Under the pieces are notes generated by a model that ran no database searches, was not told the origin of the DNA, and saw nothing but the letters and a program-made list of their open reading frames with translations. A stretch of DNA of 64,000 nucleotides, taken from contig NZ_CH724159.1 in the NCBI RefSeq assembly GCF_000153045.1, forward strand, positions 187,357 through 251,356. Reading direction: 5' to 3'. How positions within the stretch are numbered: the first letter of the stretch is position 1; each line of letters opens with the position of its first letter. Shown here piece by piece: positions 39,510 through 60,232 of the stretch. The translations under genes and the position numbers were made by a program. The stretch is from Synechococcus sp. WH 5701 (GTDB lineage: Bacteria; Cyanobacteriota; Cyanobacteriia; PCC-6307; Cyanobiaceae).

Positions 39510-39865
39510 GGCAGCGCGATCACCATTCAGAACACAGTGGCGGAGGGGAGGGCAGCTCCGGGATCAACTGACTGGCAGACGAGCCATTGGGTATCGGCAC
39601 CAACTGGGAGGTTCCAGCATTTATCTTCGTCATGATCGTCTTGGCGTCGTGACAACACGATCAACGGGTTGAATTCAGAAGTCCATTCGGAGTGTCTTCT
39701 GTGGTGTGAAAGAATTGCTGGACATAGGCATGCTGTCCATGGAGCGCATTCTCGGAATGCGGGCCCGTGGTGACTGAAGGCAACAGTTTCCAGGCCTCAC
39801 TTTGCCGTTCCAGGATATCCATGAGCTGCCATAGGTGGAGGAATGATTGTCCTTCCAAAGCCTTG
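39510..39865. other. Degenerate stretch left of IS copy 1, no convincing gene
   Basis: About 350 nt without a supportable gene. The minus strand from about 39870 to 39661 can be read as a peptide of about 60 aa (HLWQLMDILERQSEAW...), which looks somewhat protein-like and may be a relic, but it has no start, no recognised family and runs into IS sequence. A 7-bp hairpin with a TCG loop (CGCATTC at 39745-39751, GAATGCG at 39755-39761) is present. Confidence 0.5.
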
Positions 39866-39911
39866 GGAACCCCAGAAAAACCCACTAAGGAACCCCTGAA
39901 AAACCCGCTAA
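39866..39911 (+). repeat. Tandem duplication of the IS left end
   Basis: Two adjacent 23-bp units, 39866-39888 and 39889-39911, both starting GGAACCCC and ending CTAA, differ at two positions (by eye). The second is the true left end of IS copy 1. The first looks like the end of an older copy. Confidence 0.75.
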
Positions 39912-40308
39912 AATCAATCCAGATCCAAGACTGAGGCTGGAACGGATGGCCGCCCCTCTCCAGCTGGGCTTCACGGACTACGAGCAGATCTACGTCAAAA
40001 GGGGGACGCGTCGCCAGCGCTTCTTGGATGAGATGGAGATCACGGTTCCCTGGGAGGCGTTTCTGGCCTTGATTGAGCCCGTGTATCACAAGCCGTCCAG
40101 CAAAGGAGGCCGTCCGCCGATTCCTTTGGAGGTGATGCTGATCGATACGCCCTGCTTCCGCCGCTTCGCAGGGATCGAGACGATGGAAGGGAGGATCCCT
40201 GATGAGACGACGATTCTCAACTTTCGCCATCTGCTGGAAGAGCACCGGATCGCCGAGCAGATCCTCGAGGGTGTGAACCAGATGCTGAGCGAGAGGGGAG
40301 TGATGCTG

Positions 40309-40332
40309 TAGACGAAGTCGGCCGGAGGCCAT
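40309..40332. repeat. Double-hairpin mini-insertion 1 (24 nt)
   Basis: Absent from the intact IS copy. It folds as GAC-GAA-GTC (40311-40319) immediately followed by GGCC-GGA-GGCC (40320-40330), both with 3-nt loops. It introduces a TAG stop into the transposase. Confidence 0.7.
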
Positions 40333-40382
40333 GGGAAGGCACGATCCTTGATGCCACGATCATCAATGCCCCCAGCTCCACC

Positions 40383-40421
40383 CTTACCGAGGCCGCAGGC
40401 CGAGCGTGGCGGAGCCACTAG
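40383..40421. repeat. Double-hairpin mini-insertion 2 (39 nt)
   Basis: Replaces AAG of the intact copy. Hairpins GGCC-GCA-GGCC (40391-40401) and GTGGC-GGA-GCCAC (40406-40418), each with a 3-nt loop, 4 nt apart. Confidence 0.7.
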
Positions 40422-40481
40422 AACAAGGCTAAGGAGAGAGATCCTGAAATGCACTCGGTGGCCAAGGGCGAGCAGTGGTTC

Positions 40482-40508
40482 CACTGCTGCGCAGAAGGCT
40501 TCGCCTAT
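40482..40508. repeat. Double-hairpin mini-insertion 3 (27 nt)
   Basis: Replaces TTT of the intact copy (net +24). Hairpins CTGC-TGC-GCAG (40484-40494) and AGGC-TTC-GCCT (40496-40506), 3-nt loops, 1 nt apart. Confidence 0.7.
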
Positions 40509-40658
40509 GGAATGCTTTGCCATATCGGCGTTGATGCCGCATCTGGCCTGGTCCACTCGCTTGAGAGCACCGCGGCCAATGTTCATGAGCTGAACACAGC
40601 AGCTGAGCGGCTCCATGGGGATGAACGCCTCATCTACGGCGATGCAGGCCACATCGGC

Positions 40659-40685
40659 AACCGCTGCGGGGAAGCCGTTGGCTAC
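40659..40685. repeat. Double-hairpin mini-insertion 4 (27 nt)
   Basis: Replaces ATC of the intact copy (net +24). Hairpins CCG-CTG-CGG (40661-40669) and AGCC-GTT-GGCT (40673-40683), 3-nt loops, 3 nt apart. Confidence 0.7.
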
Positions 40686-41225
40686 GAGAAGCGAAACGAC
40701 TTCCAGAACTGCGAGGCTGAGTTCAGGATTGCCATGAAGCCCGGCCTGCGCAGAGTGCTTCCAGAGACACCAGAGGGCAGGCTTCTGGATCTGATTGAGA
40801 CGGCGAAAGCCCACTTTTGCACCAAAGTTGAGCATCCCTTTCGAATCATAAAATGTCAGTTTGGCTTCCGGAAGGTCTTCTGCATAGGTATCTGCAAGAG
40901 CGACCTCAAGCTGAAGCTGCTCTTTGCCCTGGCAAATCTCTGGATGGTACGGGAGCGAATACCTGATTCTGCGTAGTGCAAGGGTTTAGTGTGTCTTAAA
41001 GGTCGACATTCATCCAGAAATTAAGCCAAAATGCATGGTGGAAACTACCTGAAGTCTTTTCAAGGACTGCTCTGAGCGGAAAGTGGGTCAAATCTGCTCA
41101 GCATCGTCTCATTGGCGAGAATGAGGCTAGATTGCTCGGATTAAGATGTCTTGATCAGAGGTTCCCTAGGCTTCCACATGTTCACCACATGCTGACGGCC
41201 TGTCTGCATTCCTTAAGAGAACAGA

Positions 41226-41321
41226 ATGGTTGCTCTCATTGGGCGCTTTCAGGTCTACACTCTCATTGACGGGATCACCATCCACCATGCGCCCAGATTC
41301 CATTCAGCAGGTCTGAGATGA
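41226..41321 (+). CDS. 31-aa ORF overlapping the V-ATPase B gene start
   Basis: ATG 41226 to TGA 41321; the stop overlaps ntpB by 4 nt (ATGA). The peptide begins MVALIGRFQVYTLIDGITIHH. The region just upstream (41166-41225) is the flank of IS copy 1. It could be a leader peptide that couples translation into ntpB, or the tail of a gene cut by rearrangement. No family recognised. Confidence 0.35.
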   Translation: MVALIGRFQVYTLIDGITIHHAPRFHSAGLR

Positions 41322-58917: not shown

Positions 58918-58967
58918 GGGGTCGTCGACCCAAAGCACTTAACGGATTCTTGACGCCGGCGACTTAG

Positions 58968-60196
58968 GGAACCCCTGAAAAACCCGCTAAAATCAGTCCA
59001 GATCCAAGACTGAGACTGGAACGGATGGCCGACCCTCTCCAGCTGGGCTTCACGGACTACGAGCAGATCTACGCCAAAAAGAGGACGCGCCGCCAGCGCT
59101 TCTTGGATGAGATGGAGGCCACGGTTCCCTGGGAAGCGTTTCTGGCCTTGATTGAGCCCGTGTATCACAAGCCCTCCAGCAAAGGAGGTCGTCCGCCGAT
59201 TCCTTTGGAGGTGATGCTGCGGATCCATCTGCTGCAGCAGTGGTTCACGCTTTCAGATCCATTGATGGAGGAGATGCTGATCGATACGCCCTGCTTCCGC
59301 CGCTTCGCAGGGATCGAGACGATGGATGGCCGGATCCCTGATGAGACGACGATTCTCAACTTTCGCCATCTGCTGGAAGAGCACCGGATCGCGGAGCAGA
59401 TTCTTGAGGGTGTGAACCAGATGCTTAGCGAGAGAGGAGTGATGCTGAGGGAAGGAACGATCCTTGATGCCACGATAATCAATGCCCCCAGCTCCACCAA
59501 GAACAAGGCCAAGGAGAGGGATCCTGACATGCACTCAGTGGCCAAGGGCAAGCAGTGGTTCTTTGGAATGCGCTGCCACATCGGAGTTGATGCCGCATCT
59601 GGCCTGGTCCACTCTGTTGAGAGCACCGCCGCCAATGTTCATGAGCTGAACACAGCAGCTGAACGGCTCCATGGGGATGAACGCCTCATCTACGGCGATG
59701 CCGGCCACATCGGCATCGAGAAACGAAACGACTTCCAGGACTGCGAGGCTGAGTTCAGGATTGCGATGAAGCCCGGCCAGCGCAGAGTGCTTCCAGAGAC
59801 ACCTGAGGGCAGGCTTCTTGATCTGATTGAGACGGCGAAAGCCCACTTCCGCGCCAAAGTGGAACATCCCTTTCGAATCATCAAATGTCAGTTCGGCTTC
59901 CGGAAGGTCTTCTACAGAGGTATCCGCAAGAACGACCTCAAGCTGAAGTTGCTCTTTGCCCTGGCAAACCTCTGGATGGTACGGGAACGGATACCTGATT
60001 CAGCGTAAAGCAAGGGTATAGTGTGTCTAAAGACCGATAATCATCCAGAAATCAAGCCAAAACGAATGGTGGGAACTGCCTGAAGTCTTTTCAAGGGCTT
60101 CTCTGAGCGAAAAGTGGGCTAAATCTGCTCAGTATCGTCTCATTGATGAGAATGAGACTAGATTATTCGGATTAAGGCGTCTTGATCAGAGGTTCC
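58968..60196 (+). mobile_element. IS5-family element, copy 2 (intact)
   Basis: 1229 bp. Left end GGAACCCCTGA, right end TCAGAGGTTCC (10 of 11 matched as inverted repeats). Flanked by a perfect 4-bp duplication TTAG (58964-58967 and 60197-60200), matching the YTAR target of IS5-type elements. Same orientation as copy 1. The right end lies 36 nt before the xfp start. Confidence 0.93.
59025..60008 (+). CDS. IS5-family DDE transposase
   Basis: 327-aa transposase. Predicted catalytic triad: Asp148 in TILDATIINAPSSTKN, Asp225 in IYGDAGHIG and Glu280 in AKVEHPFRIIKCQFGF. N-terminal DUF772 region with RRFAGIETMDGRIPDETTIL. No frameshift; ATG 59025 lies 57 nt inside the left end. The 190 nt after the stop, before the right end, hold no other gene. 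Confidence 0.95.
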   Translation: MADPLQLGFTDYEQIYAKKRTRRQRFLDEMEATVPWEAFLALIEPVYHKPSSKGGRPPIPLEVMLRIHLLQQWFTLSDPLMEEMLIDTPCFRRFAGIETMDGRIPDETTILNFRHLLEEHRIAEQILEGVNQMLSERGVMLREGTILDATIINAPSSTKNKAKERDPDMHSVAKGKQWFFGMRCHIGVDAASGLVHSVESTAANVHELNTAAERLHGDERLIYGDAGHIGIEKRNDFQDCEAEFRIAMKPGQRRVLPETPEGRLLDLIETAKAHFRAKVEHPFRIIKCQFGFRKVFYRGIRKNDLKLKLLFALANLWMVRERIPDSA

Positions 60197-60232
60197 TTAG
60201 GTTCTGACCAACAACCAGTGGAGAGTGAAGGC

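Follow-up and report, generated by a model that had tools for sequence, protein, structure and literature searches.

Double-hairpin inserts in a dead IS5-type insertion sequence of Synechococcus sp. WH 5701 and the very small element families to which they probably belong

RESULTS

We analyzed a 64,000-nt stretch of the Synechococcus sp. WH 5701 genome (contig NZ_CH724159.1, positions 187,357 to 251,356), here called the window, which holds a dead and an intact copy of the same IS5-type insertion sequence (IS) (Table 1). The N-terminal piece of the dead copy, copy 1, matches DUF772. Alignment of copy 1 with the intact copy gave net gains of 23, 36, 24, and 24 nt and one 60-nt loss, and we placed the limits of the four inserts from empty sites. 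The initial annotation of this DNA had described four short insertions in copy 1 at positions that proved right within 1 to 3 nt. The insert sizes that it gave (24, 39, 27, and 27 nt) are replaced by these net gains and by the element lengths in Table 1, and the 60-nt loss was missing from it. The two consecutive mini-hairpins with 3-nt loops that it reported for each insert are present in all four, with one mismatched pair in stem 1 of insert 4. Insert 1 introduces both an in-frame TAG and a frame shift into the transposase.

Table 1. Coordinates of the IS copies and inserts in the window
Feature	Position	Strand	Length (nt)	Description
Dead IS5-type IS copy (copy 1)	39886..41170	+		Carries the four inserts and lacks 60 nt; 87-95% identity with the intact copy over ungapped pieces
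Insert 1	40309..40332	+	24	TA-GAC-gaa-GTC-GGCC-gga-GGCC-AT; hairpins GAC-gaa-GTC and GGCC-gga-GGCC, spacing 0; GNA loops on the + strand
Insert 2	40383..40420	+	38	CTTACCGA-GGCC-gca-GGCC-GAGC-GTGGC-gga-GCCAC-TA; hairpins GGCC-gca-GGCC and GTGGC-gga-GCCAC, spacing 4; GNA loops on the + strand; second family
Insert 3	40482..40507	+	26	26-nt family; TT replaced; hairpins CTGC-tgc-GCAG and AGGC-ttc-GCCT, spacing 1; loops TNC on the + strand, GNA on the - strand
Insert 4	40659..40684	+	26	26-nt family; AT replaced; second loop GTT
Intact copy of the same IS	58965..60201	+		Without inserts
Transposase ORF of the intact copy	59025..60008	+		327 aa; DUF772 and DDE_Tnp_1

Seven full-length or nearly full-length copies of this IS in the genome, including the intact copy in the window, are 100% identical and gap-free, and all seven lack all four inserts. 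The insert-free form is present in relatives too. The four gains are therefore insertions into copy 1. Related genomes carry the inserts in other combinations. A copy of the IS in genome G002 shares inserts 2, 3, and 4 and their sites with copy 1 and holds two additional inserts, and a copy in a genome of another genus (G013) has inserts 1, 2, and 3 and lacks insert 4. In G002, the 42 nt around insert 2 recur elsewhere in the same IS, and insert 3 recurs at a third place. The WH 5701 genome also holds a second degraded copy of the IS (L051, G000:C9:422900-425400), whose middle is missing and which is split near its 3' end by about 1.25 kb of unrelated DNA. Rfam models gave zero matches in positions 39800-41300 of the window at E values up to 1, and a plasmid search with positions 40290-40700 as the query likewise gave zero matches.

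The shared tri-loop architecture, which the initial annotation had taken as evidence for a family of elements, did not stand out from chance. Tri-loop hairpin pairs with summed stems of at least 8 numbered 45 in the window versus a mean of 43.75 in eight order-3 Markov copies. The combination of TA with two tri-loop hairpins was counted 16 times in 864 kb, 17 times in a single Markov copy, and 71 times after reversal of the sequence. Paired hairpins as such are no commoner than chance in this GC-rich genome, and we rejected them as a stand-alone signal because they showed no enrichment over the Markov copies. Taken alone, the architecture thus falls to a refuting condition named in the initial annotation, that shuffled sequence would give tri-loop pairs as often. 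In a search of the window, a covariance model, R1, matched inserts 3 and 4 with E values of 2e-9 and 2e-7, both inserts being among the 13 sequences from which the model was built, and gave nothing further below E 0.03. These 13 sequences had been found largely by a pattern fixing GAAG and CTA. A motif grammar that left the loops free gave 177 forward matches versus 0 in the same sequence reversed (2.38 Mb, overlapping loci included), and reversed-pattern controls gave 0 matches. The signal above chance is a family of sequence plus structure, not architecture alone.

The four inserts had been said to differ in sequence, which is true of insert 2 relative to inserts 3 and 4 but not of the last two, which belong to one 26-nt family with the consensus N-A-CYSC-TNC-GSRG-A-AGSC-TNC-GSCT-A. 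The covariance model gave nine matches to this family in the WH 5701 genome at E values up to 0.0022, with the next at 0.18. Of the 60 genomes searched, 13 had matches below E 1e-3, namely G000-G008, which are the nine of the genus, and G010, G013, G026, and G031. We list 113 of the 123 model matches; the others were six duplicates that arose where loci overlap and the four weakest matches. A scan with a 25-nt pattern returned at least 120 stretches. Among the 120 listed, 117 are cyanobacterial, with Synechococcus, Cyanobium, and Vulcanococcus as the main sources, and L254, L317, and L351 are the exceptions. The 26-nt family occupies many unrelated sites in freshwater Synechococcus/Cyanobium-type genomes. 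We also assembled a set of 149 strict copies, for which a perfect first stem and T-C loop ends were demanded and which include copies from the stretches listed in the pattern scan.

The 26-nt unit folds into two 4-bp hairpins with 3-nt loops and has single A residues as linker and flanks. The initial annotation had proposed looking for compensatory changes in the stems and for empty sites in close relatives, and both were found. In an alignment of 90 distinct copies, which was fitted to the covariance model, 97.5% of the 711 pair cells held standard pairs and 18 were unpaired. Stem cells were changed on both sides in 89 cases and on one side in 5. None of 500 shuffles scored as high, and the signal was lost when the partners were slid. 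The stem variants are CCGC/GCGG, CTGC/GCAG, and CTCC/GGAG in hairpin 1 and GCC/GGC, GGC/GCC, and GAC/GTC in hairpin 2.

A census that left the loops free and fixed the remaining motif letters found the loop TNC, which is GNA on the other strand, in hairpin 1 of 173 and in hairpin 2 of 152 of the 177 copies. GNA is the loop of unusually stable DNA mini-hairpins. Nearest-neighbor folding did not favor the GNA strand (-4.7 versus -5.1 kcal/mol as DNA and -6.3 versus -7.2 kcal/mol as RNA), and the folding z-scores of the element strands were only -0.7 to -1.9. Because the nearest-neighbor energies do not single out the GNA strand, it is only the conservation of the loops that points to a role for this strand. 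Elements that share a site also vary: across 83 filled same-site pairs from different genomes, the middle loop base differs in 31%, the flanks in 14%, and the stems in 8%, and some of these pairs hold elements with compensated stem changes. The same-site loop variation could reflect repeated insertion, conversion between elements, or constraint acting in place.

We determined what the elements replace by searching the left and right flanks of the 149 strict copies separately across all sequence used. An empty counterpart was found for 89 copies, with the flanks exactly 2 nt apart in 84 of the 89, and was not found in the sequence searched for the other 60. When each in-register site was counted once, exact 2-nt replacement was seen at 43 of 47 sites. 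At least 62 of the 113 listed model matches likewise had an empty counterpart. The lost dinucleotides were TT (47), AT (14), GT (9), CT (8), AG (4), and TA (2), from which we take an NT target rule. No target duplication was seen at the filled/empty junctions, and none of the 149 strict copies (0/149) used a HIP1 octamer as the insertion site. Between the first base of the element and the base that was lost there is a mismatch in 42 of 84 pairs, compared with 2 to 17 of 84 at six neighboring positions. The element's first base depends on the target, following the purine/pyrimidine class of the lost base: it is A in 19 of 27 purine losses and in 1 of 57 pyrimidine losses. G is the first base in 0 of the 149 strict copies and in 2 of the 113 model matches. 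One insertion is nearly fresh. In an IS256-type transposase gene, the element is present in G007 only, and TT stands at that place in WH 5701 (G000); the pair aligns over about 575 bases with six other differences (about 99% identity) and has two elements in common.

Insert 2 is a member of a 38-nt family that reads CTTACCGA-GSCC-GNA-GGSC-GAGC-GTGGC-GGA-GCCAC-TA and was found by strict pattern in six distinct contexts and at three or more sites. GCC/GGC and CCC/GGG covary in its first stem. On the strand with the 3' end TA, the loops are GCA, GGA, and GTA in hairpin 1 and GGA in hairpin 2. Empty counterparts indicate that the AA (or CAA) of C-AA-GAA is replaced. Insert 1 was seen at one site, which is filled in two genera (L026 represents the other genus), and model R1 gave no match on it. 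It looks like a shortened relative of the 26-nt family that is read from the other strand and has a shortened link. The initial reading of the inserts as a family of extremely small mobile palindromic elements thus holds for inserts 2, 3, and 4, where copies scattered over unrelated sites, empty sites that fit exactly, compensatory changes in the stems, and an insertion of very recent date bear it out, and insert 1 is a candidate member.

Of 194 cyanobacterial genomes, 32 carry a 22-nt form with a shorter second hairpin, AGC-NA-GCT, in up to 42 copies per genome, and the reversed control gave 0 matches in the 194 genomes. The first stem of the 22-nt form has the same variants as the 26-nt family, plus CCCC/GGGG, and the base at +1 is C in 31 of 33 copies, giving GTAG there. 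The 22-nt form may be related to the 26-nt family by descent or only by architecture, and it may correspond to one of the published small dispersed repeats (SDRs) or of the GTAG families 12, 15, and 16.

Some of the 22-nt copies lie within tRNA genes (loci L378, L381, L382, L386-L389, L417, L418, L420, L422, and L423), in seven genomes (G041, G050, G088, G107, G129, G183, and G221). The tRNA-borne copies lie in a complete T arm, where they take the exact place of U55, with T54 on one side and C56 on the other. Our tRNA-context test scored the T-loop position only; this position was occupied by 10 of 31 copies from automatically returned loci and by 21 of 51 copies when picked regions were included, 20 of the 51 coming from regions that had been picked partly as tRNA arrays (11 of the 20 positive). 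Several tRNA species of the tRNA arrays carry 22-nt inserts. ARAGORN identified up to 26 tRNA genes in such arrays and no tRNA in L426 of G088. One array resembles stretches of Nostoc plasmids, with 72-84% identity in the best rows, none of which extends over 80% of the length. The T-loop sequence GTTC fits the NT target rule and therefore provides independent support for it.

We examined the genes that host the 26-nt elements using 144 flank pieces, which were picked by length and GC3 and some of which are in wrong frames. Among the first 25 families listed, the Pfam matches were to DDE_Tnp_1 (14), DUF772 (11), Mutator (8), and rve (6). The NCBIfam matches, also among the first 25 listed, were to IS1182, IS5, ISAs1, IS3, IS256, IS481, IS630, IS66, and others. 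Toxin-antitoxin, sugar-dehydrogenase, and restriction genes were matched by one or two flank pieces each. Two of the nine copies in the WH 5701 genome lie in the IS of the window, one lies in another IS5-type gene, and two lie in one IS256-type gene. The remaining four adjoin HNH-like, Fic-like, or helix-turn-helix pieces or nothing recognized, and both the HNH-like and the Fic-like matches fall under the Pfam cutoff.

The insertion phase could be counted for 97 of the 149 strict copies, after exclusion of 41 whose flanks disagreed and 11 that gave no call. The phase that places TAG in frame was taken by 31 of the 97 copies, and the two common open phases were taken by 30 and 31. The phase shares were only roughly as expected: phase +2, with an expected share of 0.157, was seen in 3 of 97 copies, and phase -2, with an expected share of 0.184, was seen in 31. 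Copies in the two common open phases were found in stop-free runs of 137-1094 codons (27 of 27). We rejected an in-frame protein role for the elements because the TAG phase is as frequent as the common open phases. For the same reason, the many transposase genes among the hosts seem to reflect how well dispensable genes tolerate damage; alternatively, the elements may truly prefer IS DNA. In-frame TAG elements occur at the same codon position in several genomes in one cluster of loci (L192, L198, L199, L246, L285, and L336) and likewise in another (L153, L155, L288, L293, L295, L314, L337, and L359). Both clusters are in transposase-like genes, which are IS1182-like and IS481-like by eye.

DISCUSSION

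The inserts in copy 1 are very probably copies of very small non-coding mobile elements that have two mini-hairpins as their whole content. That they are chance palindromes or local template-switch scars would agree with the lack of enrichment of tri-loop pairs as such, but the recurrence of the same sequences at unrelated sites, the reversed controls with 0 matches, and the covariation lead us practically to dismiss it. We also consider it very improbable that the inserts lack mobility of their own and came down with old IS lineages or are peptide modules maintained in frame. Such an origin would fit the distribution of the 149 strict copies on 76 in-register sites, so that many share a site, and the stop-free runs around all copies scored in the two common open phases. 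However, the same element stands at many unrelated sites and in many families, one insertion is fresh, and the TAG phase is as common as the open phases.

For the route of movement alone, we modestly favor a single-stranded DNA intermediate over an RNA intermediate, although we would put the DNA route at slightly under an even chance. The strand with GNA loops would be the active form, and it may be copied out as a folded single-stranded oligonucleotide. Host or other enzymes could then join this oligonucleotide to the DNA at an NT site where a gap of 2 nt is open, and the process would use neither an IS200/605-type transposase nor a resident RVT_1 reverse transcriptase. PF01797 (Y1 transposases) was found in 0 of 25 Cyanobiaceae genomes, which include 11 of the 13 carriers, and RVT_1 was absent from 11 of the 13 carriers and present in G004 and G031; unassembled plasmids could escape both searches. 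These absences argue against RAYT-type mobilization and against a resident reverse transcriptase. The routes that remain are folded single-stranded DNA entering a 2-nt gap, RNA without RVT_1, and an undescribed recombinase. The HNH-like flanks had suggested a link to group II introns, which we dropped in view of those 11 carriers without RVT_1.

Movement through RNA, followed by reverse transcription or by patching of the RNA into DNA, is possible, if rather doubtful. The hairpins also fold as RNA, the 22-nt relatives lie within tRNA genes, and there is no target duplication, an argument applied to the Allomyces mitochondrial elements in passages of PMC2800124. The lack of RVT_1 in most carriers counts against it, and so do the stem changes, where the 5 one-sided changes are of the G-U type, compared with the 89 two-sided ones; DNA pairing rules fit these numbers at least as well. 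The elements could instead be moved by an undescribed recombinase or transposase encoded in the carriers, perhaps from one of the IS families hit. The host-gene matches are mostly to transposases of many families and the carriers are IS-bearing genomes, but we regard this route as unlikely, since the alignments show no ends common to element and IS and the exact 2-nt replacement without duplication is unlike the products of DDE transposases, which are not known to leave such junctions. It is less likely still that the inserts are REP-type repeats moved by a RAYT or another IS200/605 (Y1) transposase, even though they are short palindromes with a TAG end. Together with the flanking base, the GNA strand reads GTAG in 96 of the 149 strict copies, CTAG in 38, and ATAG in 15, the TAG end being required by the strict-set pattern and hence conserved there; the 22-nt relatives read GTAG at nearly every copy scored, and cyanobacterial GTAG families 12, 15, and 16 appear in passages of PMC3733652. 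Besides the absence of PF01797, the tag takes its G from the target (54 of 84 empty sites have C there), and the elements have two 4-bp stems, whereas REP stems are given in the same passages of PMC3733652 as mostly 6-9 bp, with the shortest at 5.

Elements of this kind are already known, as very small cyanobacterial mobile repeats and as fungal mitochondrial double-hairpin elements. Rickettsia palindromic elements are short palindromic in-gene inserts of about 100-150 nt that often keep the frame open. The elements described here resemble them as short palindromic inserts inside genes that often leave the frame open, and they differ in measuring 24-38 nt and in showing no sign of selection for an open frame. 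The Nostoc SDRs described by Elhai and colleagues in 2008 are reportedly 21-27 nt long, cyanobacterial, and mobile. Several SDR families (SDR4, SDR5, and SDR6) are said to share a secondary structure backed by compensatory changes. An RNA intermediate has reportedly been suggested for the SDRs, and the same question of how such tiny elements move is said to have been raised for them. The 26-nt family is like an SDR in its length, its nine copies in the WH 5701 genome, and its covarying structure, and the 38-nt insert 2 is longer than the SDRs. Unlike the SDRs as described, it belongs to a Cyanobiaceae lineage, has a covarying second hairpin, and makes an exact 2-nt replacement. It also differs from SDR5, whose site is placed between the third and fourth bases of HIP1 in passages of PMC4390886, in having no strict copy in HIP1. 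The "SDR5" in an excerpt of PMC4919922 is an unrelated use of the name.

The double-hairpin elements of Allomyces mitochondria (Paquin et al. 2000, via PMC2800124) are described in passages of PMC2800124 as two consecutive hairpins whose insertions differ between close species and lack a flanking duplication, and an RNA route is suggested for them there. Compared by description, the elements here are alike in having two consecutive hairpins, in being optional between close relatives, and in leaving no target duplication. They are unlike the Allomyces elements in their bacterial chromosome, fixed 26- and 38-nt units, GNA loops, and 2-nt target rule. Short palindromes, a TAG end, and compensatory stem variants are also features of GTAG REPs, of which cyanobacterial families exist according to excerpts of PMC3733652 and PMC3116915. 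In contrast to GTAG REPs, the elements here have two 4-bp hairpins rather than one longer stem, the tag G lies outside the unit, and the carriers tested have no Y1 transposase. We found no description of the Cyanobiaceae family in the open-license literature searched. Judged against that literature, the features that look new are the lineage, the covarying second hairpin, the exact 2-nt exchange, the absence of enzymes that usually move such elements, and, for the relatives, sites in tRNA T-loops.

A wider reading, which we offer tentatively and think unlikely as a whole, is that the 22- to 38-nt elements form a cyanobacteria-wide superfamily without a dedicated transposase or reverse transcriptase, in which host repair would join a folded GNA-loop oligonucleotide with two mini-hairpins into a 2-nt gap at NT sites, including T54-U55 of tRNA genes in arrays. 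If this is true, the superfamily would be among the smallest mobile DNA known and would have single-nucleotide precision at tRNA T-loops. The movement of elements that have no room for coding sequence or for ordinary transposon ends is presented as an open question in passages of PMC2800124. The 26-nt family supplies sharp rules for addressing it: a defined unit, covarying TNC/GNA mini-hairpins, 2-nt replacement, a near-fresh insertion, and enzyme-poor carriers.

The 26-nt elements are clustered in two of the carrier genomes. Nine model matches lie in two stretches (26 kb) of G002:C19:40000-72500 (L182 and L183), and six lie within 5 kb of G031:C1:2739000-2744000 (L196). These clusters are possibly islands of decaying mobile DNA.
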